Shown here one piece after another: positions 33,323 to 64,000 of a DNA stretch of 64,000 nucleotides. Both the position numbers and the translations under genes were made by a program. The notes below the pieces were generated by a model. The model worked only from the letters and a program-made list of their open reading frames with translations, had not been told where the DNA came from and did not search any database. Positions within the stretch are counted from its first letter, which is position 1; the number at the start of each line of letters is the position of its first letter. This DNA is from Taxawa tesnikishii (nom. ined.) (Eukaryota; Ascomycota; Dothideomycetes; Dothideales). The stretch is taken from positions 450,558-514,557 of the forward strand of contig JAPDRO010000026.1 in NCBI GenBank assembly GCA_030247885.1. The letters run 5' to 3'.

Positions 33323-33819
33323 TCAGGCATGTCATATCTCTATGGAACGAGTAGCCCGCGGTGTGTCGGTATGTGAGCACAGGAAAGCGAAGGCAGAGAA
33401 AGGTTTCGGTGGTGAACGGATGTCTAGCGTACGCGTAAGTCAGATCTACCGGGATTAGGTATAGTTCCGCGATCCACTTCCCCGCAGTATACGTTACCGT
33501 AGATTACGGGGTACAAACCGAGTGCGGAAGCGGTCCACTGATCTGAATCTGGCTTAGGGTTATACGACTCGGGCTAGAGGGTCGTTTTCCAAGGGCTTCC
33601 AACTGCCTACACAAGTCAAATGGTTCGACTTTGACTCCCCACCTCGCTTCCCCGCGGTTTCCCCTACGTTTGCCCTTCTAGCCTTGCCTCCATCCTATCT
33701 CCATCTCCAGCGTCGCAGGACCGCTTGAGTTTCAGAGAAGAATACTAGATTAGCGTGTAGACACGAACCACTCCTTGGAATCCCTGATACTGCGCTGCAA
33801 AGGTTCGATTGCCATCAAC
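33323..33819. other. Divergent intergenic region GT8 / HET gene
   Basis: About 500 bp, with a CT-rich part at 33620-33720 that suits the HET-gene leader. No gene is seen. Confidence 0.5.
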
Positions 33820-35728
33820 ATGTGGCTGCTCTGTGCGAGGTCGTACAATCTCGAATTCTTTATCAACGACGATGTCGCGCCCCGTACGCGATTCTGTCGC
33901 ATACGTGGGGGAAGAAGAGGTGACGTTCCAAGACATGCGAGACACGCGACACCCTGATCAGGTACGTCGCAAAGCAGGATTCACCAAGATTGAGTACACA
34001 TGTGCTCAGGCCATTCTTGACGGGCTCGATTACGCATGGGTCGATACGTGCTGCATTGATAAGAGTAGCAGCGCAGAGCTGTCAGAGGCCATCAATTCCA
34101 TGTTTACATGGTATCAGCGGGCGGACCGTTGTTACGTGTATATGGTGGATGTTCCCAGAGACTGCATTAACCTCTCCGATGACCTGGATCCAACAGATGT
34201 GCTTCGAGGGGTGAAGTCCACATCGTCAACTGATGGACTTGTAGCCCGGACTCCATCTACAAAGCGGCTGGAGCTCTTCCGTAGGAGCAGGTGGTTTATC
34301 CGAGGCTGGACGCTGCAGGAGCTCCTTGCGCCGTTCTATGTCGAGTTCCGCAATCAGGATTGGGGCCTAATCGGAGCGCTACCCAACTTGGTGCTCACGG
34401 TTGGAGACGTGACAGGAATAGATCATATGGTCCTTACACATGATAGGGGCTTGGATGAGTGCTGTCTGGCGGAGAAGCTGTCTTGGGCATCGGAAAGATT
34501 GACATCTAGAGTCGAAGACATTGCATATTGTCTCCTCGGCATTTGCGGGGTGAATATGCCATTGCTCTATGGCGAACGCTCAAACGCTTTCAAACGACTC
34601 CAGGAAGAGCTCCTTCGAACATCCAACGATCAATCATTGCTAGCCTGGAATGGCACAACGCCTCGCATGTCAATTTCCTATAGAGTCCTTGTATCGAGAC
34701 CGTCACAGTTGCGGCAGCGCTTGTTGAATGAGCTAAGAAGTTCATTGCTCACCAGTACGCAAGTGTTGGCTTCGTCGCCGGCGGCCTTTCGCGATTGTGG
34801 GCCGGTTCGTGCGTCCACTTCCTCGACCGCCCAGTTTTCGATCGACTGGAGCAAGCATGGGGTCAAGGCACGGTTGCCTTTGCAACACATTGGCAACGGT
34901 TACTACGTGGCGCTGCTAGGCTGTACGTACGGGGCCCAGATTCCAAGGCTTTGGGAACTCGGAGTCGCTGTTGGACTTCTTCTGACACACAAATCCAAAG
35001 CCGGAGCTGAATCAGCAAGACATCTAGGTGTCACTGCCTATAGACCTTCACAGCTTTGGGGTAGGCTAACGTTTTTTGTCGACGAACTTCTAGTGGATAC
35101 GAGCCTTTCTGCTCAGGAGGAGATTTTGATTCTCTGGAGCGATAATGTTGATGACTCCAAATTGGGCGCTCACGGTGCTAGTCCTCGGAACGAACTTCGT
35201 GTTCGATTGCAGCATATCACTGTTCGTCTAAGCTCGAAATTTGATCTGGAGTTTATCGATGGATATCCTCGTACGGCGTGGAACTTAAAGGCAGCCTTGG
35301 GATTTCTTGATCTCAGAAACCGATTTGCGGCGTTGACGATTGAGTTCTCTGGCAGCGAACGGATCGTTCTCATTTTGTTTCTCGAACCCATCCAACGGGC
35401 GCCTCATGCGCCTCTGCTTAGGTTCATGAGGCATGACTCATGGCTAGACGTTCTGGCCGGGTTCAGGTTGCAGGATAGTCCACTAAGTGGAATCGACGCA
35501 CGACAAAAGCCAAACGATGATTCTACGTCTTATCGTAGACTAGTCTCTCTGCTCGGTATCGAGAACGACCGGTTTCTAACATACCCCGACTCTCGGATTA
35601 TGCGCGATCCGACGGCTCAAACAAGCGTTCATGGCTTTGGAACAATTAGCGCAACGCCTGTCGTCAAATGGTCAACGAGCATATCTATTGAAATACACTG
35701 TACTCTGGCAAACACACAGCCGAGATGA
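33820..35728 (+). CDS. HET-domain (heterokaryon incompatibility) protein
   Basis: An intronless gene. The first frame starts MWLLCARSYNLEFFINDDVA at 33820, the usual 'M-L-L' opening of HET proteins. The signature 'YAILSHTWGEEEVTF' is only obtained if one T is added near 33885 and one G in the run at 33907-33911. After that the frame is open to 35728. The rest of the domain is clear: 'KAGFTKIEYTCAQAILDGLD', 'YAWVDTCCIDKSSSAELSEA', 'INSMFTWYQRADRCYVYMVD', 'SRWFIRGWTLQELLAP' and 'EDIAYCLLGICGVNMPLLYG'. HET domains are TIR-related and trigger cell death when incompatible fungal strains fuse. The C-terminal half (about residues 300-640) has no WD40, ankyrin or NACHT repeats that I can see. The next gene downstream is the patatin/GTPase protein, same strand, about 470 bp away. 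Confidence 0.9.
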
Positions 35729-36198: not shown

Positions 36199-39100
36199 AT
36201 GAACAAAGACTGCACCGCGATGCAGAATCATACTATATCGTATATATGTGAGGGCTACCAGTGCACATCTCCGGTACTGCCCATCTGGCACTGTGTTGAT
36301 TGCTCGACGAGTTACTGTAACCGCTGCTGGCACAGGCAGGGACCGCACCAACAGGGCAAGACTGGGCGCGATGGCTTACCACACGAGAAGACAGACTTCG
36401 GCGTACTCAAGCGGATGAGAAGCATCCTCAACCCACCCGAAAGTCAGGATGAGTTGAAGCGTCTTCATGAAGATGATGTTGACACGATCTGGTTTGGTGA
36501 GCAGGGATGTCCGCATCATGTTAAACCGAGAACTTACCATGATGTTGTAGGCGTCCAGAAGACGCAGTATGACTGCAGGTTTCTTGACTACGGTCGATAC
36601 GTCCAGCTGCTCCAGGAGAGCCCGCCTTCAAACAAGATTAAGTATCCCCAGCTTGTCTCATTCGTCGGCGCAACAAGTGCGAAAAGATCTGTGAACTTTC
36701 TTATCTGTCACTGATATCTCCCAGATGCTGGCAAAAGCACACTTATAGATATGCTCATCAAGTACCAAGAAGACAAACTCGAGCCGAAGCCAAGTTCGCC
36801 GTTTCCAAGCCCGGTCGTTGGCTCTTTAGTCCACGACAGCTTGCCTACCTCTGGCGATGTTCACCTCTACGCAGATCCTGGAACGTACTGCACGAACATG
36901 CCCATCCTTTACGCAGATTCAGAAGGACTTGGAGGTGGGGAAAAGCTTCCCGTCGGTATTTCGATTCGTCACGCCAACGATGATCAGCCAAGAAGAGAAC
37001 CACGTAGTTCTGAAGGCAGGTCGCGTACTATCCAATGGGCAACCAACTCGTATTATCGCAAGAGAGAAACCGCTGTCGCACAGTTGTATCCACGAATACT
37101 ATACACCTTCTCGGATGTTGTGGTGTTTGTTCTTACTGAACCAAAGTAAGTCTCAAACAGTCTTGTCAAAGGTGTGTCCTGATCTCGAAAGACTCACAAA
37201 CCGGCAGGCTATTCGAGTCTTCTGTTCTGCTTAGACTGCTCGATTGGGGCGCGGCATCTCTAGAGAAATCTACGAACCAGCCAGCATTGCCGCATATAAT
37301 CATAGTGTTGAATGCGACTGACGTTGGCGTGGACCAGCGTGACTGGGAAACTAAATTCGCGACTGACAATCTCCTTTCGAGTGTACGTGGTGCTTTCGAT
37401 CACCACACCGGGGTGCCTGAATTGAAGGAGCACAAGCGTACGTGGGAACGACGGGGGAAGAGGATCGACACCATCAAAGATCTCATTCTTTGCTATTACT
37501 CGTCTTTCGAAGTACTCCGGATACCGGTCAAAGGGCGCTATATGCTCATTCAGCAGCAGATTACCAAATTACACCATGCGATACAGGATGGCTGCGACGA
37601 CTCATTTTGGGTTAGGAGGATGGCTCGTATGCTTCCAAACTCAGACGAGTTGAGTGTCTACCTTCAGGCTGCCTTCGACCATTTTACCACAGACCTGGAC
37701 ATCCCATTCAACTTCGTGGAGGTCTCACTCCGAAGCAATTCGATTCCTGTTGATTTTGGCAGCCATATCTTACAGCTTGCAACTTACGTTCAGCGCGTTA
37801 CAAAGAAACAGCCTGCGTGGGTATTCAAGAGGCTAAGCGTCATTGTCGCTTCAAGTATATTCTTGGATTGTATTCGATATCGAAAAGGTGATGTTGTCCC
37901 TTTCATCGAAAGACTGGCAGATCAAGTCAGCAGGCTGTCGTGAGCCAACTGGATGACCAGTAGAGATACTGGAAAGCGACCCTGAGCCACTGACGCAGAT
38001 GCTGGCAGCGCGGACTGTCTAGACACATCTAACTTCATCGCTTGTTGTTAAATCAGCTTCTGTATCTACCCCCGGTCTTTCTAGAAATGTCAACTGTACC
38101 GTTGGGTGAGACAGCGGCTGACTCTACACAGGGCTTGCTGAAAACTTGTTCAGCGTTTACGAAGAATACTGCAATTTTGCAATCACCATTTTCTGCGATC
38201 TTCACTGTCCATGTTCTTACGCGGATACACGAGGACGCCGTTGTGTCAACGTCAGGTCAAGACATAGCCCCAAAGGCCATCAAGGCGAAGATGGCAAAAT
38301 CATGGCTACTGGAGAATACACGTCCGATTTTTCGGTGGAGCAGTATATGCCGAGCTGGTCAGCCGATATTCGGAGAAATGTAGCTAATATCCAGCGAACA
38401 TTCCAAGAGCAAGTGTCCGACAGTTCTGACAAGAGTGTCCCTGAACTTCGCATCGCCTTGAGGATCCATCAAGAGTCCATGCTGTCTTTCTTCAAGAAGT
38501 TGCGTTCTGCCAACCTCTACTTCAGCCATGCTACCTGCTTCTGCTGCCTGATGAAGGTTCCAATCCATGCTCTACCATGTGGCCATGTCTTGTGCTACAG
38601 GTGCGTCCAAGCGTATGGGAGCACCAAGAAATCAATGCACAGCACCGTCGAGATGTCAGCCTGCCCTTTACACCCACACGATAGATTCCCTAGACCACAT
38701 CCAATACGTTTCAAACCAGAGTATGCGGGAGTGCGCATATTGAGTCTCGACGGGTAAGTCTACGGTTTTTGTTACTAAGCATAACTGAACTGGACTGATA
38801 GTGGCGGTATCCGTGGAATTGTGGAGCTAAAGGTATTAGCGGCTATCCAAACCGCGCTCGGAGGTTTACCGGTGCAGGTATTCTTCGATCTGATCATGGG
38901 CACAAGGCAAGTTTCTCAAGACCGGTCCGTCGTTGAACGGCTCTCACCCAGAACAGTACTGGTGGTATTGTCGCCTTAGCGCTAGGCGCCAAAGAATGGT
39001 CTGTCAAGGAAGCCACGAAGGATTTCTTGAGTCTCTGTGAGACAGCGTTCACCGGCCGGAATTCCATGGCGTGCCTATTTTGCAACAAGCCACTACTCTG

Positions 39101-40910
39101 AGACACGGAAGCAAATACAAGAGCACGCCGTTGCGTAACACTCTACGGAGCGCTTTCGGGGAAGAAAGCCTTTTCGGTGGCCAGAACAAAGAAAGTACGT
39201 TTTCCTTTGTCAATACTGCAGTCATCTCAACCACAGAAACGTGGCAGGAAGCCGTCGTCCATGCAAATTACAACAGACCCGAGCCCTCTATGCCGCATTA
39301 TCGGTTCGAACGGCCAGATGACCCCCGGCAAGAGATGCATGCGTGGGAAGCAGCTGCCGCCACATCAGCTGCACCCGCCTTCTTCAAGCCATTTACAAGT
39401 GATCGTACAGGAGTACATATCTTGACGGCGCCATATTCCACAACAACCCAGTGCGGGTGGCGAACAGCGAGCGGAAGGTGCTTTGGCCTGACGTCGAGAA
39501 ATGTCATCCTGATCTTTTTCTTTCCATCGGGACTGGGAAACCTCGGGCAATCACACACGGTCGGATTCCAGATAATGAGCCAGAGGGATCTTCGCTTACG
39601 AAACGACGAGATCGCTTGGCAGTGCCCCAGCCAAAGGAAAGGAGAAGAAAAAATGGCGTGAACATGATGCAGACACTGCGGGGCTTGCACAGTCGGATGG
39701 ACAGCATCATCAATGCAGAATTCATATGGTCGAACTTTCGTCGGGATGCATACAATTCTACAGATCCAGACTCGATCAAGAGCCGCTACATCAGGCTCAA
39801 TCCCAGCCTAAGAGAGGAGCCGCCACCGCTCGATGCCAAAGACCAGATAAAAAGGCTCCAGAACGAGGTCCGCTCCCGACTGTCATCATCAACATATAAG
39901 ACCAGGATCGCTAAGGTTGCGAATCGTCTTGTTGCCAGTCAATTCTTCTTCGAGAAAGACAAGATCCTGAGAATGTCTCCGGAATTAGACCAGCTGCAAA
40001 CGTGTCATGGTATGTTACAGTCACCGATACCAGGAAGTATACTGACATTTCTAGGGTCAATCTATTGCAGGTTCGAGAATGGAACACCTTTACTAAGAGG
40101 GCTGGGTGAGCACCTGAGAACACACCAACGTGAAGACTTCCAGCCTTTCTTCTCTGTTGGAGGGTCAGAGGGAGAGCCTGAGCTTTGTAAGGTACGCATC
40201 GAATGCGCGAGTCTCCAAGACGCAGACTTACGGTTTCCATATACCCTGTTCTGCACGCTCAAAATTGTTCTGTTTACAGATTCCCTAACATACCTACAGA
40301 TCGAGTTGTCTGCAAACACCCTTGACCGAATGGTCAACCAAGCTCATTTTGCGATTGAGAAGATCAGGTTCGGAGTAAGAGGTCCTCAAACTGCCATCAC
40401 CATATCCCTCGCGCTCCAAGGTCACCGCTCACCCAATGATGAGGAATACCGCTTGTACCCCATCAGCGGGTTCCCAAGGTACTTAATCACGGAAGATAGA
40501 GTACAGCGTAAGTAACTCCACAATATCGGCGTCGCTCCTTCGCTGATTGGAAGGAAGTATCTAGCCAGCCTTCCACTGTCGGTCTCGCCCGATTACGGAG
40601 CAGGATGGCCCTAAGAAGTGTCAATAAGTCTATCATGGACACTGAGTCTGAAATCAGTGTTGCGGAAACCACGGTCGGTCGCGCTGTCCGAAGTGTCTCG
40701 CAGCCCTTGCCGTCGGTCATCCATAATGAGCCGCCAGCGCCCGCTGGGAGAGCAGCGAGGTTGTCTTATCCGCAGATCACTACTCGACCAAATCGACTCA
40801 CAGCGCGAAATCTAGAGGGGCTACAGAGAAACTCATCGCCTGCACACTCAGAGGATCAGAGCATCCAGGGTTTAGATCTGATGGGTCTGCGGTTGGAGGT
40901 CCATAGGTAG
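36199..40910 (+). CDS. Multidomain Zn-binding / GTPase-like / RING / patatin phospholipase protein
   Basis: A large spliced gene of about 1,400 aa. Its N-terminus is Cys/His-rich ('WHCVDCSTSYCNRCWHRQG'), like a B-box or ZZ finger. Next is a P-loop domain: Walker A 'VGATNAGKSTLI' (about residues 156-167, restored exactly by intron 36677-36724), 'ADSEGL' (G3-like, about residue 223) and 'NATD' (G4-like, about residue 335). A RING-like block follows, 'CFCCLMKVPIHALPCGHVLC' plus YRC, and then a patatin domain: 'RILSLDGGGIRG' (oxyanion loop), 'MGTSTGGIVAL' (Ser nucleophile) and 'HILDGA' (catalytic Asp). Patatins cleave acyl chains from membrane lipids. Further introns: 37146-37207, 38754-38801, 38907-38956 (GC-AG) and 40508-40557. 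The junction between 37930 and 38140 is unresolved. Two lost bases (near 39058 and 39424) break the patatin frame. I recall similar proteins named 'FabD/lysophospholipase-like' in ascomycetes. A defence or cell-death role is inference. Confidence 0.82.
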
Positions 40911-41446: not shown

Positions 41447-43408
41447 CTATCCCAGGGATAGATACGCTCCAAGAAGCGTCGCAATGCCGACCATGTACGG
41501 CATCTTAGCGATCGTAAATGCCGCAGCCCCGGTATAGGTTGCAACAGCTGGGGTTGTGGAAGTCGAATTGCGGCTGCCAGAGCTGCCGCTGCCTGTGGAA
41601 GTCGAATTCGACGTAGAGGTCCCAAAGATCGTTGCGTTAACTTGATTCCAGAAGCTGCAGACCGAGTAATCCACGACACCAGGAGTCGCCGAGGAAGATC
41701 CGTTGATAACATTAAGCCCCATGGAAGAGTTTGTGAAGAACTGGGGCCATTGGCTTCCTGGATTTCCGCTCGCCATCCCGGTCCAGAACCCAATGAACTC
41801 TCTGCTGAGCGAGTTCTCCGCCGCAGTGAAGTTACAGTCACCGTTTGGTGGAGGGTTGTTGTATGTATTGCCGAAGACGAATGGGATCTCGGATGTGTGG
41901 GCTGCTCCGAAGATTGGCAACACCGAAGCGTCGAAGTTGTTGTACCAGGGACAAGTGGGAGCTTGCGACCAGAGGTACGTCCATACAGGAGTGCCTACTT
42001 GGTTCGCCCGCATGAGACCTTGATAAGCTGGGCAGAGGAAGCCGGTCTGGGTAGCGACTTCCACAAGGGCTTCAAAGGCCGGAAATTCCGCGCTGCTGAA
42101 GGCTGAGACGGGGTATCGGTTGTTGACAAGCGAAGCCGCTCGGCCAAATGTAGAGTTGAGATAGGCGGCATAGACGGCTGGCGTGATTTGTGCTGGTGAT
42201 GTCACGCCGGGTTGACTCAAGAGAAGCAGGCTGTACTCGCGGCTATCTAAGATTTTGTCAGTGAAGTTGTGCAGGTATCTCGGAGACACGTACTAGAGCC
42301 GAATATAAAAGGCACTTGCATGCCAGCATCCGCAGGATTGGCTGGGATGACATTGCCATCGACGAATGGACCAAATGAGCGGACGTTGTTGCGGTTGTAT
42401 GAAGGACCGGGGTTGGGATTAGGCACAGTCGATAGAGTAATGTTGAGTTCCGACAAGGACTTCGATCGGAGACATGCGATCTAGTGGTGTTAGTAACAGC
42501 AAGGTACACGAACAGCCAGAGAACTCACATCACTGCACCCGATGGTTTGTGCCCACAGAGCGCCGAAGGCGTTGGCGGATGAGGCAGGAGGCAATCCTCT
42601 CCCGCCACCGGACTCGGACACACCACCTTGGAAGAGAGAAGGTGCTTGAGGTAGAGATCCAAGTGTAAAAACGTCGACGGCGCCTGCCGACTCTCCAAAA
42701 ATCATGACTTTGGACTACGAAGAGATTAGCCTGGCCACCAATGTTTTTTGCATGATGGCCTGATTCGCTAACCGGGTCGCCACCGAAAGCCTGTATGTTC
42801 TTCTGAACCCAACTCAAGCCTAGCAGCTGGTCTTGAATTCCAAAATTGCCGCCGATACCGAAGCTCTGAAGACCTAGAAAGCCCAGTGGTCCAAGACGGT
42901 AGTTAATCGAGACGACAATGGCGCCGGTAGCAGCAAGATTGCATCCGTTGTAGGTGGGGTTGGAAATGCTTCCAGCGAAGTTGCCACCGCCATAAATCCA
43001 AACCTTCACCGGCAATTTGTCGCCTGCTTTGGCGTTGGCTGGTACCCAGATGTTCAGATAGAGACTGGAAAGTCATCAGTGACAGGAAAAGCGAGGTGAG
43101 AATCAATTGCGGCGGCCTCACCAATCTTCAGATTGATTAGGTTCGGTGAACTGCTGCCCGAACTGCGGACAACTCGGCGCTGGCGTAGTCGCTTGTCCCA
43201 AAGTGCCATTATAGGCTTGGGGAGGAGCGAAGCGCAGCTGGCCCGTGGGCGGCTGCGCATAAGGGACAGAATAGAAATACGAAGCATTTGAGCCCGCATA
43301 CGAAGCTTCACCCAAGCTTGCGCATATCCCTCCTTGAAGAGTGCCAGCTGGGAGAGTGACCGACTGGGCCATGCACGAAGCGGCCAACAACCCAAGGAGT
43401 GCTAGCAT
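41447..43408 (-). CDS. Secreted, GPI-anchored type-B carboxylesterase
   Basis: Five exons on the minus strand (43408-43122, 43064-42773, 42714-42529, 42480-42294, 42246-41447), with introns of 57, 58, 48 and 47 nt, all GT-AG; 583 aa with no frame break. A signal peptide (MLALLGLLAASCMAQS) is followed by the carboxylesterase fold. This shows 'YSVPYAQPPTGQLRFAPPQA', 'SEDCLYLNIWVP', the oxyanion loop 'VWIYGGGNFAG', and the nucleophile elbow 'VMIFGESAGAVDV' (Ser in GESAG). The catalytic His lies in 'AAHTSEIPFVFGN'. The C-terminus has a Ser/Thr/Gly-rich linker and a final hydrophobic segment (PYMVGIATLLGAYLSLG), a classical GPI-attachment signal. The enzyme probably hydrolyses small or lipid esters at the cell surface or in the wall. 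The natural substrate is unknown. Confidence 0.93.
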
Positions 43409-47628: not shown

Positions 47629-48020
47629 ATATATTTTATAAGTAAGTTAGCTACTTAAGTAAGTCGGTTACCTTATAAAAGTAGAATACTTATATAATAA
47701 CATTATATAATACTATAATAATTTATAGTAGTATATAAAATAGTTTATTATTATTTAAAAATATTACTATCTTTTATATCCTTTATTTCTACCTTATAAA
47801 TATAGGAATTATACTTAGTTTTATTATAATAGCTATAATATTACTTTATACGTACTTTCTTTATAGGCTTCTTATTATTATTATAATTACTACTTTCCTT
47901 AATAGTAATTAAATTAGTTATTTTACTTACTATTAAAGTCTCTTCTATTTATATATATTATCTTTTATAGTTTTTACGCTTTATAGTTACTTTAATTACG
48001 TCTTATAAGCGCGCTATTTC
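47629..48020 (-). repeat. Left direct LTR-like repeat
   Basis: Matches 57309-57695 along its whole length in the same orientation. It begins with ATTTTATAAGTAAG and shares words such as TTTATACGTACTTTCTT and TTTTACGCTTTATAG with only transition-type differences. It has lost more C and G than the right copy. Edges are placed by where similarity stops. Confidence 0.85.
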
Positions 48021-49899
48021 TTTATATATTAATACTATCTTATATACTATTTACTAAGCGCTCTTTATAAGTTACTTAACTTACTTATTTAAAGAACTTA
48101 CTAGAAATTCTTAATATTTTTATATACGATTTTGAATTAGTATTAACTATACTTTTATTTTACTAGTATTATATAGTATTTTTGCCTCCTATTTAACTAT
48201 ACTTAGTATAAGTAGCGTTAGCGTATATAGCTTAATATTTAACTTTAGTAATATAGCTTTTAAGTCGTATAAAATTAGCCTAGCGCCTCGAAACCTTATA
48301 TAAATATTCTTTTATATAAATACCTTCTTAAAAGCTACTTTAAAGGTAATTAAGAAGGTTTCTTTCTTAATAATATAAATGTAACTATATACTAAGACTA
48401 AGATCTTATTATTATATAGGCGCTTTAATAGTAAGTAGTAAATAATATTAAGTAACTATAGTAAGTATAAGGAATATAAATATACATAGAAAGTTATAGT
48501 ATTATTTTCCTTATAGTAACCTTAAAATTCAACTAAGTAGTAACTCTTATAGTTATTAATAATAAGTAACTTATATACTCTAATAATATAAGCCTTTATA
48601 TATATATTAAAGTACTTAAGCTATATAAGTACGAGCTTATTATTAGTTTAACTAGTAGAAGAGACCTTAATAATCTAGTTATAAAGTAAATTATTAAACT
48701 AAGTTAAAATAAGGACTTTACTTATAAAGATAATAAAGAGTAAAATAACGCGCCCTATTACTTTAATACCTTATACTAAAGTAAATTACTTGCAATTACT
48801 AGGCTATAGTTTCTTTTATTTACTAGGTTTTTCTAAGCTTATAGTAATTAGCTAAGATAATATCTTACTTATTAAAAAGCTAGATTTATTAAAGTTATAA
48901 GTGTCCTTATTTAAGATATTATACTTTACTTTTATTAACTAAATAAGCGTAAACTAAAGCTAAATAACTACTAGATTCTTATAAGTAACTTACTAGTAGT
49001 ATAGTAGGGTAGCTACTAAATAGTTATAAGTTATTAGTTATATAGAAGTTACCTTTAATTTCTACTTATTTAGTTTATATATAAGATAATTACTTATTTA
49101 ATTAATAACTACTTTACTTTAGGTTTTACTATTATCTTATTATTTACTACTATCTTTATTACTACTTATATAGCTTCCTTTTATAGTTTTAACTTAACTT
49201 AATATAGAGTTCTTTCTACTATATTTTAGTAATTATATTAAGGGAAAATAAAGCCCTTAAGGAAATAGTTAATAGAAAGAAGTATATAGAGTAGTAAGAG
49301 TATAATATAAATACTAGTCGATATAAAAAGATAATTAACTACTTTAATAACTCGCGTACTTATAATAATATAAAGATCTTAAAGGCTAAAGATAATTCCT
49401 TTATTAATAGTATAATATATATAGAAGCCTTATAAGATATTATATAGCTAGTATCTTAAGACTTCTTATTTTAGGAATAAAGTATACTTAAGTAAAATAA
49501 GATTTAAAGGTATTTATAGATATAAGTATTACTTAAAGTCTAGTCAATTTAAATTATAAGTAACTACTAAATTTATAACTCGTACTTATATTAAAAGTAA
49601 TCCTTCTAGAATATTAAAATAAAAGTCTAAAATAGTAAATTACTAAAAAGGATTAAGATAGTAGTATTACTTTTACTAGAGATATTTATTTGTTTACTCT
49701 AGATAGTATTAGGTACTTTATTATACTAGTTATATATTTATTATAGTTCTAAAAAATCTATAAAATAAACAATATTTAAACAAATTAATAATACCTTCAA
49801 AGGATTCGATTTATACTAGTAAGTTAAAGAGGATTATTACTCTAATAGTAAGTTTATACTTTCTACTAAGTATAATAGTATTTCGAGACTAAGATTAAA

Positions 49900-50650
49900 T
49901 ATTAACTTTAAACTATTTATTACTACTATAATAACTTCTTCTATTAGCTTAACTATTTATATCCCTAATACTAGATAGAATATTACTATAATAGTTACTA
50001 CTACTATTTAGCTTATTACTCCTAGTAATACTTTTATTAACGTAAGTAGAGAATATAATTTATCTATTAGAAATTTCCGCTACTTTATTACTAGTAGTAA
50101 TTTACTAGGACTTAATATTACTAAGTTCCTACGCTTTAATAGTAATAATATAACTCGGTTCTTAAAAGACTAGAAAGAATAATATATAAATAACTTTATT
50201 ATACTAAAGGTAACTATTAAATTACTTCCTTAGTATATAAATAAGAGACTTATAAAGTTTATTTAGTCCTTAGACTTCTATTTTAATAGGAACTAAACTA
50301 AACTAAAAAATAAGCTTCTTTATAAATATTAAAAGGATAATATCGATTACTCGCAAAATATAAGATAGCGCTAGTTACTCTTAGTAATAAGGCTATAAAT
50401 TAGAAAGGTAAATCTTTAAAAGACTAAAAAGGATATTACTAGCATTTTTAAGTTTTATAAAAAGAGTACTTAATAAGTCTATAAACTTAGTCGAATGTAT
50501 TACTTTACTATTACGTAAACTAATACTTACTATATTTAAAAAGGTATTTTATAAGACGAGACTATTTAAGATAATAAATTCCCTTAGAGCTTAAAGAAAT
50601 TAATTTATTAGTACTAAGAAATATATAGGAACTAAAATCCTATAGTATTT
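49900..50650 (+). other. Plus-strand gag-like relic inside the element
   Basis: One plus-strand frame reads as protein if TAG/TAA stops are taken as mutated Trp/Gln codons: 'NNITRFLKD', a stop, 'KE', a stop, 'YINNFIILK', then 'YINKRLIKFI' and 'SLDFYFNRN'. This resembles the 'G-x-N-V-T-x-F-L-x-x-W' start of capsid (gag) proteins of fungal LTR elements. It lies on the strand opposite to the copia pol relic. Confidence 0.5.
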
Positions 50651-52899
50651 ATTATTATAAAGGGTAGAGGGAATTAACTTAAAAAGGTAAAGGGAATTTT
50701 ATTTCCGTATTAGATTTATCTTATATTTAAGTATATTTATTATATATACGCGCCGTATTTCTAGTCGTAATTTTAGAGCTAGAATTATATACTAAAGGTA
50801 AGTTAAAGTTACATTAAGGTTATAAGTTAAATATTTTAATATTTATAGAAAACGACTATATAGTAACTAAGCTAATATAAAGAGTAGGAAAGATAAGAGT
50901 TTAAACAATATACTATATTAAATCTATAAATAGTACGCTAATTAACTACGTAAAAGATATAAACTTATATTAACCTTATAGTAAGGGAGTTACGTATTTA
51001 TGCTAATATAATATATAAGAGTTACGTACTTATATTAAGTTAAGGAAATACGTAAATACTTAAGTAGAATATTTAAATACTACTTATTTTATATTTTTAT
51101 AACTTATTTACCGTTATATTATAAGCGTTATAATAAATTTAATAAAGAACGTTTTTAAGATAATAGATACTACGTAATATATCAGTATTTACTAAAATAT
51201 AAAGTATTAATTTATCGTAAGTATAAGTATAAAGTTTAGTTATATAAAGTTATAAATTATTTTAAAAGTAAGTATTATAAGTTAAGTTATAAGGAATCTA
51301 ATAGTATTTTATAGGAGGCTAGAGTATAATTTAAAGGTTTATAAGCTAGCTTAAAGGAGTTTAAATAGTTAACTAAGATATAAAAAGAAATTTTAAAGTT
51401 AGCGATTTTTAAAGATAATTAATAGTACTAAATTAACTTATAGAAATACTACTATATTCGACAAATAGATAAATATATTATCGAATAGTATAAAGTTATA
51501 TATAGATAGAAACGATTTAAGAGGAAAAGCTACTTAATTAAAGTTAAGTAATTAAAGACTAAAGAAGGAAAGATATAAGTATAAAAGATAGTTAAGTACT
51601 AGTAGATTTTTATTTAAAGTTAATATTTAGGATTTTAGTAAGTAAAAGAACATAAGTATAAAGGGTAAAATAATAGTAAAGCGTAAAACATTTTAGATAG
51701 TAAGATAATATAGTCTAAGTTTATAGTTAATATAATTAAGAACGTAAATAATATTAAAGTAAAAATAAAGGTAAAAATCGATAAAGGAAAAGTAAATAAA
51801 GTAAACTAGTAATTAAATAAAATAGGATGAATTACGTATTTAGTAAGTTTCGATTATACGTAGTTAATAGGAAGTATAAATAAGTTAAATAAGACGGTAA
51901 AGCTAATAGAAATAGTAATTTAAATAGTAATAAGAAGATTAGTCTAGTTTACGTAGTAAATAGTTATATAAAGAGCCGAGTATTTTGTACGTATTAAGGC
52001 CGTTCAAATAAAGAATAAGTAGACGAGATATATACTATTAATAGTATACTAAGATATAAAGGAAATATCGACGTATATATAACTATAAAGGTAACTATTA
52101 ATATTTTTTATATAGACTATATATAAGAAGTATAAATAAGATAGTTTAAAGTACTATTTTAATAAGAAGTAATAAAAGGTATAAAGAGTATTATAAAGGT
52201 AAGTAAAGAAAGAAGTAATATAGTCGTAACTAATATAGTTATAAGTAAGGAGTATTTTAGCTAGACGAGGATATAATAAATAAGTAGTATTAAATAATAA
52301 AGAAGAGTTAAAAGTAAGTAAAAGAGAAGAGTAAGCTAAAGAGGTAAATACGGAAAAATAAAGGAAGTTATTAAAAGTAAAAGAAGCGTATTTAGAGTTT
52401 TATATTATATTATTAGACTAGAGTAATATGTCGAAGGATTATAAGTACGTAATAGTATATATTATAGTAGTTTTTAGAGTTAAAGAAGGAAAATAAAAGG
52501 GGACAAATAGTTACTTACTAATTTTATTTAAGTTAATAGTTAAACTAAGTACTTAACTATAACTAAATATATAATAAAACTAACTATAACTTATTAATTA
52601 ATTAAGCTATTTATAATAGTACTTAGGAAATAAAGAGATTCTTCGCTTAAGTTAATAAGTTATATAACTATTTATTTAGACTAAGTAGCTACTATCTTAT
52701 AATACTCTTTCTTAGCTAAATTAGTCCTCTTTAAATAGTTTAAGTTAATTAGTAAACCTCTAGAAATACTAACCTTAAAGAGGCTTTATAAAGCTATTAG
52801 TAACTATTTCTTATATACTAATAAACTTAATATTATCTTCTTCCTCTTATATAAATCTCTAATATAATAATAGGCTATATCGATATACTTTAATTTATT

Positions 52900-53900
52900 A
52901 TAAGTATATATATCTTAAATAAGAGAGAAAGTAGCTTAGTTATCTCCTTTAAGTATAATAAGTAATCTAATAGTAAACTTTAGCTCTTTTTAAACTATTA
53001 GCTTAAAGGAGTTGCTACTAATAAGGTACTAATAGCCTATATTTCTTAAGAGTAATATAAGTTATTATAATTACTTTAAGTAAGTATATATTACTATATA
53101 CTTAGTATTTATAATAAAAGTTACTATTAACTTTTACTTCTTACTTATCTAACTAATTAACTTTCTTCTAAGTATAAATATATTACTAAGGATAAAAATC
53201 CTATCTCGTTTATTTATTATATAGTTAAAGTTAGAAAAGCTAGTTAAATATTAGTTTTAATATACTCTTAAAATAATTACTAAATTAGTATTTAATCTTA
53301 AGTACTTTAAGATTCCTTTAGTTACCTTAATATAAAACTCTACTAGATTTATAAGGTACTAGCTTAGTTTACTTAAGGTAAAGGTAATATTAAGCTTTAT
53401 TAAAATATTAAGGTAAACTATCTTTCTAATTAGATATAAGTACTCTCTTTAGTTTACTCTTATATCTTAGAGTCTAACTAGTCTTAGTATATTATAGTTA
53501 TTTAATAGTACCTTTACTAGGTAAGCTTTATCTTTCTTTATATTATATTTAGTAAGAATATCTTTAATATAATAAGACTAGTTTATTTTAATTATTTTAG
53601 CCTCCCTATCTCTTATAATTTTTACTTTAAGAATAAAGTTAATTTCTCTTAAGTCCTTAATCTTAAAGATAAAAGTAAAAGCCTCTTTAAACTATAGGAT
53701 ATTATTAATATCCTTATACGCTACTTAGATATTATCTATGTAAATAAAGAGAAGTATCTTCCTTTTTAAGTAAATTAAAAGATATAAGTTTACTTTACTT
53801 TAAATAAAGCCTAGGTTTTAAAGTTATAATATATAATTCTATTTTAGTTCCTTACTACTTACTTAAGACTATATAGGCTCTTAAGAACCTTAAGTACTTA
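52900..53900 (-). mobile_element. Copia-type reverse transcriptase / RNase H relic
   Basis: On the minus strand the text 'LLFIYIDNI' at about 53725-53755 is the mutated reverse-transcriptase catalytic motif (YVDD in active copia elements). It is followed by 'VAYKDINNIL', 'FKEAFTFIFKIKDLREIN', then 'YYIKDILTKYNIKKDKAYLV', 'KLNITFTLSKLS', a stop, and 'TKGILKYLRLNTNL'. The order and spacing match the RT-to-RNase H connection of Ty1/copia polyproteins. Many stops are present and it cannot be active. Confidence 0.8.
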
Positions 53901-56900
53901 GCTAAGGGCGAGATTAATACTAGGTAAAAGTACTATATAAATCTCTTTCTTTAAAAATAAATTAGTAAAAGTATTATTAATATTTACTTAATAGTACTCT
54001 AAGTCCTCGATTATAATAATAGTTAGGAAGACTCTTAAAGTATTATACCTTAAGGTAGGAGTAAAAGTATATTTAAAATTAATATTATATTCTTAAGAGA
54101 ATCCTCTTACTACTAACTTAACCTTTAGTTTATTAAGAGATTTATTTAAGTTAAACTTAGTATTAAAAACTTATTTACTTAATATAATATTATACCCCTT
54201 TAATAGAGTAGCTATTTTAAATATTACGTTTACTTATAAAGTATTTAGTTCCTTCTTAATAGCCTCCTTTTAGAGTTTTCTCTAAATAGGGTTATAAATA
54301 ACTTTTAAATAAGTTTATAAAATTAAGATATTTATCTTACCTTTTACTATAAAAGCGGACTCTTCTTCTACTTAATTAACCCTAGATAGAGCGATAATTT
54401 AGCTTTATTTTTCTTTTATAAGTAGGGCTATAAGAGTCTTAAATATCTTAGCTAACTTATAGTTAATTTTTAACTTATCTTTATTAAGATTCCTTCTTAT
54501 TTTCTTAAGTATTAGGATTTTAACGTAAGAGAAGACTTTCTTTAGTAAAGTTAAGGTAAGAATCTTAACGTAAGAAAATACGTTTCTTAGTTAAGTTAAA
54601 ATAATTATTTCTTATTTCTCCTATTATAGTTCTTTTTATAGAGACTCTTTCTACTAGGTTATATAAGGCTCCTCTTAATTTATAGTCTTAAGAAGCTCTT
54701 CCTACTATAGTATATCCTTATAAATATATAGTATAAGTTCTATTAATTACCTCCTTAGTCTACTAATTAGCTTTCTTTAAGGTACTATATTTAAAGTAAA
54801 TTTAATAGGTATATTAAGCTTAATATTCCCTCCTTTTTTATCCTTAAAGAACTTAATTACTTTACTTATAATTATCTTTCTTATATCTAATACTTAGAGC
54901 TTTTATTACTTAGTAGTACCTTTAATATAACTTATAAAGATTCTAACTTTACCTTTATTTATTAGCTTATTTTATCTTAAGAATAAAGGTAAGGATTTTA
55001 AGTTTATATAAGTAATAACTTTATAACTCTAAACTCTAATATAGTCGGTTAATAAGGTAATTTTAGTAAAAGCTTCCTTAAGACTAAGCTATTTACTATT
55101 AATAACTAGTTTATTAAATATAAAGTTTCTAAAGTAAATATTAGTTTATATTACCTCGAACTAGAACTTATTTAGTAGCTTTATATTCTTAAGTATTACC
55201 CTTATATTAAACTCTATAGTCTAGTTATTTCTTTTAATAACTCTATTTTATAAAGATATTTAAGTAATAGTAAACTAAGGTTAAATTCTCTCTTATTTCT
55301 CTTACTCTTAAAAGACTTCCTTTAGCTTAGAAGTATTATTACTTTTAATAGCTTTAAGTTTAGCTTTACCTTAAAGTTCCGCCTTTTTCTTTTATTATTA
55401 AAGGTAAGTAAGAGCTTTATTTCTAGTCTTTAGTTTATAAATCTAAGCTTTCCTTAAGTAGTTATTTATAATAAGAAGGAATATAATATACCCTTATTAT
55501 AATAGATTAAATAGCTCGTAAATATTTATATAAACTAAGTTAAAAACTTTTAGCTTTCTTATTAAGAGAAGTCCCTTCTTATTTCTAATCTTAGTAAGTA
55601 TATAGATCTTATATTAATAGCTTCTATTAATTTAAATTAATTTAGTAAGTATTATAACCTTATATAAGTTACTAATCTTTTTAGCCTTAAGATAAGTAAG
55701 CCTTTTATAATATAGTTAGTATTTCTACTTTTAAGTTATATCTTTTATTAGTACCTTTTCAAGACTATTTATAAATCTTTATATAACTCCGGAACTATAT
55801 AATATTTACTTTAGCTTTTATTAGTAAATCTTTAAGTATATTAACTAGCTAATTACTTAGCTCTTAAAGCTATATAAATTCTACTTATTAGTAAGTAACC
55901 TTATCTCGTAAATTTAATAAAATAATACTTTAATAAGTACTCGATATAACTCGAAATATATATTAACTATTTAGTAAGGTAATCTTATTTATAATATAGA
56001 TACTACCTTCGTATCTTACCTTTACTATAATATTTCCTTATTTATCTTTTAAGTATATACTATCTTTATCGAAGGTTATATAAAGTTTACTCTTATATAT
56101 TTTCCTTTTAAATATTAAGTTAACTTTAAGATTAAGAATATATAGTATCTTTAATAAAAGAATTAAGTTCTTATTTTTATTTATTATTTCTACTATATTC
56201 TAGTAGTTTAAGAATAAAACTCCTCCTCCTATTATAATCTTCTATCTTAAGATATTTTAAAGTAGTCCCTTAAATAACTAGAGTTAGTTAATTATATATA
56301 AACTTATATTAATATTAGAAGCTTAACTTTAGTAAGGAACCTTACTTCTTACTTTCTTAAAGAAATAAGTAACTTCCTTAATAAAGTTTATAGACTTTAA
56401 TCTTAACTTAATAGGTTTAACTCTATAGTTTAAAATTTACTTAAAGTTAAAGTTTCCTTAACTTTAAAGGCTTTATACTTCCTCTTTTTTACTTTAAGCT
56501 TATCTTTTTTACTTTAAACTTATAACTTCCTTATAAAGCTTATTAATTAAATCTATTATATTATTATTACTTCTCTTTAACTTAGCTCAAGATTTCCTTT
56601 ATTTTCTCTTATCTTTAGCTATAGCCTTTATATCTTTAAAGGAAGAGTAATCTTTTATTTAATAGCTACTATTATAAAACTAATATTTAGTTTATTTTAA
56701 GAATAAGGATTTCCTTCTATTAAATAGTTACTTTCGTCTTACTAATATAATTATAGAAACTTAATTTCTAAGTTAAGCCTCTTTTTCTTTAAGTAAGATA
56801 AGACCTTTATTTAAGTCTATATTTAGTTAACTATTAATAGTATCTTTAAGTATAAAGTACTCTTTTAGTAATACTATTAAAAGTTACTAGAATCGCTTCT

Positions 56901-57308
56901 TTTAAGTTATAAATACGTCGTAATTATTATTTATTATAACTATCTTTCTTCCTAGTATAGTAAGGTATATCTAGGCTTTATTAACTATTATAACTTATCT
57001 TATAATATAATTAGTATATTCTTAAATATATTACCTTCCCTTACTTAAAAGCCTAATATTATACTTTATATATAAAGTATCTTATATTTCTTTTATACTA
57101 TTTATATTATCTACTATGTTTTAATTATTATTATTAATATATATTATAATCTAGTATTATACTTCTTTATTATCTTTCTAACTCTTAAACCTCGAGAGTC
57201 TATTAAAGATAAATTTCCTACTAGATTTTATACTCTATAGTATTTTTACTATATTTCCCTTAATAATATAATAAACTCCTTTTAATATTAACTACCTTTA
57301 TATCTAAC

Positions 57309-57695
57309 GTATTTTATAAGTAAGTCGGCTACCTAAGTAAGTCGACTACCTTATAAAACTAGAACGCTTACGTAGTAATATTACGTAATACTATAATACT
57401 TTATAGTAGTCTATAAAATAGTATATAATTATTTAGAAACGTTACTATCTTCTATATCTTTTATTTCTACTTTATAAGTATAGGAGTTATATTTAGTCTT
57501 ACTATAATAGCTATAATACTACTTTATACGTACTTTCTTCGTAGTCTTCTTGCCGTTATTATTACTACTACTCTCCTTAGTAGTAACTAAATTAGCTACC
57601 TTACTTACTATTAGAGTCTTTTCTATTTATACGTATTACTTTTTATAGCTCTTACGCTTTATAGTCGCCTTAATTACGTCTCGTAAATATACTAC
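57309..57695 (-). repeat. Right direct LTR-like repeat (5' LTR for the minus-strand copia)
   Basis: Same-orientation partner of 47629-48020. It is less mutated: where the left copy has TTAGCTACTTAAG this one has TCGGCTACCTAAG. For a minus-strand element this is the upstream LTR. Confidence 0.85.
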
Positions 57696-57705
57696 TCGTA
57701 GAAGT

Positions 57706-57730
57706 CAAACGAATGGCCACGATTCGTTTG
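57706..57730. repeat. Inverted repeat CAAACGAAT / ATTCGTTTG
   Basis: CAAACGAAT at 57706-57714 is the exact reverse complement of ATTCGTTTG at 57722-57730, with a 7-nt spacer GGCCACG. The right arm is part of the repeated unit below. The form suits a dimeric DNA-binding protein or a small hairpin. Confidence 0.8.
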
Positions 57731-57808
57731 CTTTTGCGTGGGCTATAACCCTAAGGGTTAGAGGAACGACCACGATTCGTTTGCACCTGTTGACCACGAT
57801 TCGTTTGC
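57715..57808 (+). repeat. Three copies of a 17-bp unit GRCCACGATTCGTTTGC
   Basis: Copies at 57715-57731, 57768-57784 and 57792-57808 are identical except for one base in the first. Start-to-start spacings are 53 and 24 bp. They sit about 350-430 bp before the helicase ATG. Confidence 0.9.
57746..57760. promoter_or_regulatory. Head-to-head telomere-like palindrome TAACCCTAAGGGTTA
   Basis: TAACCCT-A-AGGGTTA is a perfect 15-nt palindrome made of one CCCTAA and one GGGTTA half, as if two telomere repeats faced each other. It lies between repeat copies 1 and 2 above. It could be an interstitial telomeric scar or a site for a telomere-repeat-binding Myb protein. Confidence 0.6.
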
Positions 57809-58099
57809 CTTCCCGAGCCCCAACCTTCTCGAAACCCACACACTATACTGTCATAAGGTTATTCTCTCTGCATGCCAAACACCACTCATATATATGCCAT
57901 ATACATGGAACATCAAGGGCGGCGGTCTTAAAAGGAAAAAGATGAGGCGCCTTGTGCATAGGCCACTCCCGCATTTTCGCAGGGCGGCCTCTCCAAACAA
58001 AGACCAGCCCTGTGTCTATGCGACGTGATCAGTACGCTCTAAACAATTGATCCTGAGCATCACATGGATCCTTTAAATCCTTAGAAAGGTAATATAGCT

Positions 58100-58156: not shown

Positions 58157-61100
58157 TTTTCATCGTCTCTTCCAAGTAGTCGCCCAGCACCGCATCCTTG
58201 TTTGCATCCATTGTCAGTATGCAGTCGTACCTTCGCAGCTCGCCAAACATCTTCGTGTGCATCACAAGCGTCTCAGCTTACAACAACGGCGGGACATTAT
58301 TGCCAAAGTCGGGTCTTTTACCGAACTTGCGCAAGTCGAGGCAGATGTCATCTATCCAGCAGCAACAGAGCCTCCCGTAACGGGACTTCCGGTGTACTTC
58401 GACGGCTTGAAGTGTGGCGGGAAAGATGGCGAAGGCAGGCTTTGTCCCTATATATGCCGCACTCCGCGTGGCATGCAAGATCATTGTGAGCGGCAACACG
58501 GCTGGGTCAACGGACAGAAGCGAGGCGGCGATGCTCGTTTGAAGCAGGTCCATACCCACAACAAGCTGTGGTCTTGCGACCGCGCCTGTCAGCGTTTCTT
58601 CAAGGTCGGAAGCTGGCAGAGGTACTTCGAGGTCCAAGTAGCGGACCTGGAGATTTGCGGTCGGAGGCGAGCCGGTCACCAGCGTGACTTCTTCCGGACG
58701 CAAGAAGAAGACATCCTTCAGGCAGAGCGCGACGCCGCATCTGCGGCCAACCGTGTCCGCGGATTCGACGAGCATCGTTCTACCGTGGTACCATGGCTCA
58801 GAGAGACCGGCATCGTCGACCATGTCTGCGGCTTGAAGAAAGACGAGATCCGAGCAGCGATCGCCGTGCCCTCGCGAGACGAAGGATGTCCTCTGCGGAC
58901 GATCGTCGATGCGATGGAGGACGTGCTCAGGGAGGCGCACGGCTGGTGTTTCGACGGACCCGACTGTATGCTCACTTGGCCATGTCGCGTCGTTCTCAGT
59001 CGGTTCCAGTCGTCGCAGGTCGAGTCGATTGGGAAGGTTCGGCCGTTCGATCCTTACAAGGAGCCCGGCACGCTCAAGGTCTACTTCAAGCTGGCGTCAC
59101 AGTTCCTGTCGTACCTGGAGCGAGTGGCGATCTGTGACGAGTACCACTTCAGTGCTGACTCGGAGGAGACGATCCGGCCAGAGGACGTGATCGAACCGAC
59201 GGACAAGCAAAGGGTGGTGTGGCATAACCTCCGTCGGTTAGCAGAACGGGGAGCGACGGGCACGGGTGAAGGGATCAAGGGCCAACTGAGAGATGGGCTG
59301 GTTGAGTTATGGATGCTCGTTATCCGTCACACTACCGGAGCCCGACGGTACCGCTCGCCAATAGTGAGCTTCTGCGCGATGCTAAGCATCAAGCCGTCTA
59401 CGCAAGGCTGGATGGAACCCGGCAACTTCAACAGCAGTCTGTCTGCGATGATATGGGTCGCGCAGCTGCTGATCTTCTATGACTGTGCTCGCAAAGAGCG
59501 GCAGGGTGGGGAGAAACGCTCGCGCTCGTCAAGGAATGCTGTGAGAGTTATCTGCAGCAGACGGCCGAGACGCCGATGGGGAGATACTCCGCTGGCGCCT
59601 GTTGCTGTTTCGCATCTCGAAGGACAGCGTGGGTGATCATGAGGCCTGTTGGGACGAAAGCGAACAGGTCCTGACATACGAAGATACAGAGCTGCGTATG
59701 GACCAGATCCCCACGCTACTGCTCTCCGAATACCGTGAGTGCGAACGGCTACTGTACGACGACTTGCTGCTGGGTCAGAAGGACCTACGCCGCATGCAGT
59801 CTTGGGCGCTTAGAGATAGCGGCAACGTCGATACCGTCGGCTGGAGCTTGATCCAGCATCGTGACAACGCTCTCCTGCTGAGGGGGACGGACAAAGCTCT
59901 GTTGGCCGCCGTTGAGCGTTCCGAGCAACTGTGCCGCCTTTTCCTTCAGCAAGACCGTCGATCAGCGAGCGGCTTCGTTTGGAGGGACAGTGCGCTAGCC
60001 GGCTACGAGGCAACTGTGCAGGAGTTCTTGAAACGCTTGTGTGTCCTCGTTCACATCAGTGGCGGTCAGCCCATCCGCGAAAGCGAGTTCTTCTCCATGA
60101 CCTGGCGGAACACGCAACGACGACGATCCATCACACTCCGCCACGATCGTGTCATGATACATGTCAAATACCACAAAGGTCAGCAGCAGACGGGCAGGTA
60201 CAAGGAAAACATCCGGTTTCTCGCCAATCCGGTGGGCGACCTGTTGCTGGATTACCTCGTCTATGTCGTGCCGCTACGACAGGTCTTTCTGCGGCAGCAA
60301 TCACCAAAGGCACTGCTCTCCTCGTTCTTGTGGGAGAAAGACGGAAAGGTGTGGGGCGAAGGACGGTTGAGTCGTTGTCTGGAGGAAGCCAGTGCTCGGG
60401 CGTGCACACCCCGGCTTCACGTTTCCAACTGGCGCCAGATGAGCGTGGCCATCGTCAAGACCAAGTTTGCGAGCAACATAGGCTGCTTCGAAGTCAACGA
60501 AGACGACGAGGACGCCGAGGAGATGGAGGAGGATATCCGAGCGATGACGAGACAGCGCAACCACAAGACACGCACGGTCAACAGGGCGTATGCCAATCAG
60601 ACGGGAGCGACCTTCGGCAACGTGTGGGACGGGCTGATCCGAATGGGACTTCGCGCGTCAACGTTGTGGCAGGACTTCTGGGGAGTGGAGACGATGCTAA
60701 AAGGCAAGAAGCGAAAGAGGGACGGAGAAGAGTGTCGACTGAAGGAACGACTTGCCAAGGGTGTCTATCGGCCCCGCAAACCGTGGTCGGCAGAGGCTCT
60801 GCTGGAAGGGCTCAGAAAGCTCTACGGCAACCAGAGAATGATGTGGAAATCGAGGGAGCAGGAACAGACCCTCACCACGATCATGTCGTGGACGGAGCAG
60901 GTGGTGGCCATCTTGCCAACCGGAGCCGGAAAGAGCCTGTCCTTCATGTTGCCGTGTACGCTGCCTGATGCCGGGATCACCATCCTCATCGTGCCGCTCG
61001 TATCCCTTCGGGCAGACCTGCTTCGGCGGATACGGGAACTGAACATCGCTCACCTCGAATGGTTGCCGGGAGAAAGTCGAGAAGCATCGCTGATAATCGT

Positions 61101-63943: not shown

Positions 63944-64000
63944 TTAGGGTTAGGGTTAGGGTTAGGGTTAGGGTTAGGGTTAGGGTTAGGGTTAGGGTTA
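63944..64000 (+). repeat. Telomere, (TTAGGG)n
   Basis: Nine and a half uninterrupted TTAGGG units, G-rich strand 5' to 3' toward the window end. This fixes the window as the right end of a chromosome. TTAGGG is the usual repeat of filamentous ascomycetes. Confidence 0.99.

Follow-up and report, generated by a model that had tools for sequence, protein, structure and literature searches.

We analysed a stretch of 64,000 nucleotides from the genome of the ascomycete Taxawa tesnikishii, referred to below as the window, which comprises bases 450558-514557 of contig C19 in an assembly of 29,367,862 bases (29.4 Mb) and 34 contigs. Positions 36199 to 40910 of the window are read here, on the forward strand, as a single gene for one large intracellular fungal protein that combines a B-box-like zinc finger, a GTPase-type P-loop domain, a RING-like block and a patatin phospholipase domain. 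The domains follow one another in the same order in a paralog on contig C31, and comparison of the two copies shows conserved motifs, one gene by homology and constraint at the protein level. The chances seem to us about even that the product is an effector in regulated cell death or defence, a phospholipase gated by a nucleotide.

Gene structure and relatives in the genome

The gene model was built from a six-frame reading and splice signals, and was then checked against the C31 paralog (locus L022, C31:411000-420000), which lies on the minus strand at about 5780-1700 of that locus. Exon 1 (36199-36496), with a proposed ATG start, carries a B-box-like Cys/His zinc finger at 36247-36384. The Walker A motif GATNAGKST (36667-36741) is divided between exon 2 (36551-36676; GAT.., collinear with the paralog) and exon 3 (36725-37145; NAGKST), the latter also containing the G3 sequence ILYADSEGL (36904-36930) and showing 53% identity to the paralog over 122 codons. 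Exon 4 (37208-37887) holds the G4 sequence IIIVLNATD (37296-37322) and the conserved region after it; it is 58% identical to the paralog, with proportions of differing synonymous (pS) and non-synonymous (pN) sites of 0.90 and 0.27. A Cys/His knuckle (38206-38280), the RING block (38536-38673) and the start of the patatin domain (from 38731) lie in exon 5 (38132-38753); the zinc ligands of the RING were read in three divergent members of the family. Exons 6 (38802-38906) and 7 (38957 to about 39058), defined by sequence and splice reading, contribute the DGGGIRG loop with the first part of GTSTG and the completion of the catalytic Ser codon, respectively, and exon 7 runs to the first of two frame breaks that are discussed below. 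The middle of the patatin domain (39062 to about 39409), which includes a WEAAAATSAAP block, is 46% identical to the paralog, and the end of the domain with the DGA motif and the following region (39412-40009) is 47% identical. After an intron at 40010-40054, the C-terminal part (40055-40910) resembles the paralog by eye only; its exon limits are uncertain, further introns are likely at about 40190-40300 and after 40507, and no Pfam family matched it. The length of the protein is therefore given with uncertainty, as roughly 1,200-1,350 residues.

Six introns interrupt the 784-residue part of the model. Five of them (54, 48, 62, 244 and 48 nucleotides) have GT-AG borders, and the last, a GC-AG intron of 50 nucleotides, splits the catalytic Ser codon. 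The intron at 36497-36550 takes out residues that would be translated if the sequence were read straight through, and the one at 36677-36724 (48 nucleotides) interrupts Walker A, where the paralog has no intron. The most informative intron is the proposed one of 244 nucleotides at 37888-38131, which has stops in all three frames. Exactly at the same codon the paralog has a GT-AG intron of 45 nucleotides, which argues that the N- and C-terminal halves belong to one gene. The zinc finger-GTPase and RING-patatin parts are thus assigned to one gene by homology, and their order, being repeated in the paralog (58% identity in the B-box part, and 49%, 58% and 48% in the other matches), appears to be more than chance.

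The two finger regions were identified by their ligands. The B-box-like block reached 19.2 bits with the Pfam ANCHR-like B-box model, below the cut-off of 27, and its Cys/His ligands are also present in the paralog. A two-copy profile over this finger led to Midline-1 at an E-value of 0.8, with only the window row covering the finger. The RING block has eight zinc ligands with RING spacing (C-x2-C, C-x-H, C-x2-C, C-x2-H/C), which were read in the window copy, the C31 paralog and two relatives on contig C2, and every Pfam RING family stayed under its cut-off for this block.

An earlier note on this DNA, made from the letters alone, had proposed a single chain of a zinc finger, a P-loop with GATNAGKST, DSEG and NATD motifs, a RING-like block and a patatin domain, and had marked the junction at 37930-38140 as doubtful. 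The P-loop motifs are read at 36667-37322 and are kept in the paralog, the ligands of both fingers are present even though the Pfam scores lie under the cut-offs, and the paralog of the same order supports the single chain. The doubtful junction now reads as the intron at 37888-38131. Overall, the motifs, the domain order and the one-gene structure in the note hold, but it missed that the frame of the patatin domain changes twice.

A search of the genome gave one relative for the GTPase part, on C31, and three for the RING part besides itself at E<1e-11, namely C31 and two C2 loci; three further RING-part matches at E-values of 0.06-0.15 were left out of this family count. The C2 loci (L023, C2:469000-475500; L024, C2:936500-944000) are near-identical RING-patatin loci that face opposite ways and are separated by about 470 kb. 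They keep the RING and a GTSAG motif, and look degenerate in places. A degenerate GTPase in these relatives was considered, as the sequences are collinear by eye and a two-sequence blastp comparison gave an E-value of 0.007, but the hidden Markov model (HMM) score of L023 was negative and such a domain is therefore not claimed; L023, the one C2 locus tested, had no significant GTPase match by HMM. The occurrence of this near-identical pair on one contig may stem from a segmental duplication or from the assembly itself.

The GTPase-type and patatin domains

The G1, G3 and G4 motifs occur in order and are near identical in the two copies (GVTNAGKST, DCEG and NATD in the paralog). This supports a GTPase-type P-loop domain and no narrower class. 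The Pfam MMR_HSR1 model gave 18.2 bits with the 784-residue model and 19.9 bits with the GTPase slice, both below the cut-off of 21.9, and neither NB-ARC nor NACHT matched the 784-residue model at E-values up to 5. Dynamin_N reached 12.3 bits over the P-loop only, and none of its 25 matches in a genome scan fell in the window. The presence of DxEG at G3 and the spacing of the motifs recall the GTPases of the GBP/atlastin group. The Pfam GBP model, when searched, matched only at an open reading frame (ORF) that we take from its sequence to be Sey1, and not at this locus.

Searches against solved structures gave no match at E<0.06. The best, 3h2y, was placed around the P-loop at E-values of 0.42 (single sequence) and 0.068 (two-row profile), followed by GTPase Der (1.3) and MsbA (1.8) with the single sequence and NOA1 (1.3) with the profile. 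When the GTPase part was aligned with the Sey1 of this genome by hhalign, P-values of 0.00067 and 0.00071 were obtained in two runs. In the second run, which had 15 other targets, a dynamin-family ORF (0.0009) and two ORFs with NACHT hits (0.0017 each) came next. Since 6 of 30 shuffled sequences that kept the P-loop reached 0.00062 or lower, the Sey1 match was rejected as evidence for the GBP/atlastin class. A fold prediction for exon 4 alone (226 residues) had a mean predicted local distance difference test score (pLDDT) of 35.9, which is too low, and the fold was therefore not used for any fold search. The PHROGs database yielded nothing useful for the GTPase part.

The patatin domain is recognised by its profile. 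With Pfam Patatin (PF01734; cut-off 27.7), the window model up to the first break scored 41.4 bits and the paralog 59.1 bits, and the middle part alone (39041-39424) 25.2 bits. The nucleophile motif GTSTGG lies at 38899-38966, and the DGA codons of a YLDGA sequence at 39424-39432, so that the Ser (GxSxG) and Asp (DGA) of the catalytic dyad are both present in the window copy, in different frames owing to the breaks. The first patatin part of the window model also matched the PADLOC effector phospholipase models (E-value 1.1e-18). For the C-terminal ORF of the paralog the corresponding E-value was 5.8e-36, and its match to NF041079, the phospholipase of the cyclic-oligonucleotide-based antiphage signalling system (CBASS), had an E-value of 5.5e-27 and 94.8 bits, under the equivalog cut-off of 200. 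This likeness is not specific to the gene, because, when four other patatin ORFs from this genome were compared with the PADLOC library, three matched as well (best E-values of 2.8e-43, 1.9e-23 and 1.7e-17) and one did not. It appears to reflect the kind of patatin and no special tie to CBASS. Pfam scans of 19 stretches, which cover part of the window, showed no cyclase family. A search of the two C-terminal ORFs for TPR, ANK or WD repeats, in a region of uncertain exon limits, gave no family at E-values up to 1.

The claims of the earlier note on these two domains stood in part. It had reported a patatin domain with both catalytic residues, and these are present in a domain over the Pfam cut-off, but not in one frame. 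Of the two profile checks that it proposed, that for patatin was positive, but that for RING stayed under the cut-offs. Its idea that a GTPase-type switch replaces the NACHT or NB-ARC domain agrees with the G3 and G4 motifs kept in both copies and with the absence of NB-ARC and NACHT matches described above, but the searches did not establish a dynamin/GBP fold. The likeness to patatin effectors of prokaryotic anti-phage systems was recovered with CBASS-type models, but is shared with most of the other patatins tested.

Frame breaks, locus and alternative explanations

The reading frame of the patatin domain changes near 39058-39062 and near 39409-39412. Each change is one base short, and the breaks were placed approximately at 39059-39061 and 39410-39411, beyond which the conserved sequence goes on in a different frame. 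In the paralog a single ORF of 589 residues extends across both sites. GT-AG pairs that span the sites and keep the frame open do exist, such as 39037-39089, which ends in CAAG, and 39343-39410. Introns are nevertheless disfavoured as an explanation, because their excision would delete sequence that aligns with the paralog; in the case of 39343-39410 this sequence includes the WEAAAATSAAP block.

The most serious of the alternatives is that both breaks are real, that the window copy is a recently decayed subtelomeric pseudogene, and that only other members of the family work. We regard this as unlikely, though it deserves attention. In its favour are the two breaks in one gene, the partly degenerate look of the C2 relatives, and the position of the locus: TTAGGG repeats of the telomere type close the contig from window position 63944, about 23 kb beyond the end of the gene, and an AT-rich block (about 21-26% GC at window positions of about 48-58 kb, 48001-58000) lies between, flanked by sequences of about 45% and 57% GC. 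The parts of a neighbouring carboxylesterase also lie in different frames. However, one-base-short breaks are also seen elsewhere in this assembly, in two core genes that are conserved; these are individual cases and not a rate. A chaperonin (Cpn60_TCP1) gene on C1 (L029, near 528264) has one at a run of G, and the SAPS gene of the window has one near 14776. Two such breaks are also found in the N-terminal half of the paralog, where they coincide, as judged by eye, with runs of C. The members of an HSP70-family pair on C3 and those of a HET pair on C29 likewise adjoin each other, their profile positions running on without a gap and leaving no space for an intron. On the strength of the breaks in the paralog, the chaperonin and the SAPS gene, assembly errors appear the likelier cause of the two breaks than decay.

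The pattern of substitution also speaks against decay. Synonymous sites are at or near saturation with respect to the paralog in six segments along the gene (pS 0.72-0.90), in which residue identities are 53, 59, 48, 34, 46 and 47%. In five of these six segments, located before, between and after the breaks, 46-59% of the residues are kept, the segment with 34% comprising 32 codons. Constraint after the breaks thus appears about as strong as before them, and splice sites, catalytic residues and zinc ligands are kept.

It is somewhat less probable still that the protein is a housekeeping or stress-related lipid-remodelling enzyme, the GTPase of which acts in membrane trafficking and not in cell death. 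Patatin domains are also found in ordinary lipid metabolism, and GTPases often act at membranes. A genome scan for patatin, which did not list the window copy, split as it is by introns and breaks, gave 17 matches of several kinds, 16 of them over the cut-off. However, a subtelomeric location, a divergent family of few copies, the loss of Ser in the paralog and the mixture of B-box and RING give little reason to suppose a conserved core enzyme, and clear relatives were found in the genome only on C31 and, as regards RING-patatin, at the two C2 loci. Lastly, two adjacent separate genes, one for the zinc finger-GTPase and one for the RING-patatin part, might be suggested by the stops between 37888 and 38131 and by the C2 loci, which have RING-patatin and, in L023, lack a significant GTPase match, but this is very improbable given that the paralog joins both parts at the same codon.

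Several other features were noted around the gene. A HET-domain ORF (33788-35725; Pfam HET 44.6 bits, cut-off 22.5), which does not belong to the protein, lies on the same strand and ends about 0.5 kb upstream. The carboxylesterase neighbour (41450-43300, minus strand) may be broken or may contain an assembly error. The AT-rich block, together with a subtelomeric ORF that matches DEAD and Helicase_C domains (59545-61941), resembles an AT-rich subtelomere of the type shaped by repeat-induced point mutation. Short introns, HET genes and this arrangement would fit a filamentous, ascomycete-like fungus.

Proposed function and comparison with known systems

If the protein is a nucleotide-gated phospholipase effector, sensing or binding of a partner could fall to the B-box-like finger together with the segment that precedes the P-loop. 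GTP binding and hydrolysis by the GTPase-type domain would then drive self-assembly, and assembly would bring patatin domains together, so that membrane phospholipids could be cleaved by the Ser-Asp dyad. The RING and B-box might set stability or recruit ubiquitin. In this scheme the identity of the nucleotide, self-assembly, lipase activity, membrane damage, the ubiquitin roles and cell death are inferred. Switching of a patatin by a GTPase, in place of a STAND switch, is proposed by analogy with PLP-1, the Podospora patatins and the NB-ARC-patatin members of the NOD-like receptors (NLRs). We would also raise, as a tentative idea that we think rather unlikely, that the gene represents a class of non-NLR effectors of cell-autonomous immunity in fungi, in which a GBP/dynamin-like assembling GTPase is fused in one chain with RING/B-box control and a CapV-like patatin, with dead paralogs as possible regulators.

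Several observations weigh against the proposed effector function. The HMM, fold, structure-search and hhalign tests did not place the GTPase in a class, and no relatives of the N-terminal part were confirmed among 591 and 56 pattern matches from the prokaryote and viral collections, obtained with two short peptide patterns each. The paralog has GTGTG, with Gly in place of the catalytic Ser, which means that not every member would retain lipase activity. The C31 copy is thus a possible pseudo-phospholipase, and one might speculate that it serves as a decoy or regulator. The window copy itself may have been lost recently. In addition, 95 HET matches were listed for the genome at E-values up to 0.001, and not one of these is closer than about 95 kb to any of the three remaining RING-patatin loci. 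As a HET neighbour is thus present at one of four loci, a conserved two-gene system of HET and GTPase-RING-patatin was rejected. 

Of the receptor-type nucleotide switches, none of three NB-ARC matches and 5 of 13 NACHT matches in the genome exceeded the cut-off, one of the latter only together with its neighbours; the HET, NB-ARC and NACHT counts were made exon by exon and are lower bounds. The lack of an NB-ARC match over the cut-off invites the speculation that GTPase-patatin proteins might stand in for NB-ARC effectors here.

In many ascomycetes, RING-patatin proteins appear in automatic annotation. The literature listings searched contained no account of a protein that joins GTPase, RING and patatin. 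The nearest known systems include the patatin-containing NLRs of fungi. PLP-1 of Neurospora crassa joins patatin to NB-ARC-TPR, and the cell death it causes needs both patatin activity and the nucleotide-binding motif of the NB-ARC (PMC12881547); six of nine patatin genes of Podospora are up-regulated during incompatibility (PMC3689799); and Dyrka and colleagues state that the patatin of fungal NLRs occurs almost invariably with NB-ARC (PMC4986451). Like PLP-1 and Pa_1_11380, which act in fungal non-self cell death (PMC12881547, PMC3689799), the protein described here would hold a patatin and a P-loop nucleotide switch in one chain. However, in those proteins the patatin is N-terminal and accompanied by NB-ARC and TPR, whereas here it is C-terminal and accompanied by GTPase motifs and by RING and B-box-like fingers, NB-ARC and repeat families not having been found.

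Phospholipases of the CBASS/CapV type share the same kind of patatin domain, but the protein here is fused to a GTPase and a RING, lacks a cyclase context in the stretches scanned, and has a paralog under the equivalog cut-off. The dynamin superfamily (GBP, atlastin/Sey1-like) has a P-loop, a DxEG at G3 and an NxxD at G4 in the same order and a link to membranes, but no GBP or Dynamin_N match over the cut-off was obtained at this locus. TRIM-type proteins likewise combine both kinds of finger, RING and B-box-like, in a single chain; here, the fingers are not adjacent, as the B-box-like finger comes first and the GTPase lies between. If the proposed function is correct, this protein would represent a second way to gate a patatin lipase, besides the NB-ARC switch of the known fungal patatin death effectors, and would place fungal cell death beside the themes known from bacterial CapV and from animal GBP and TRIM proteins.

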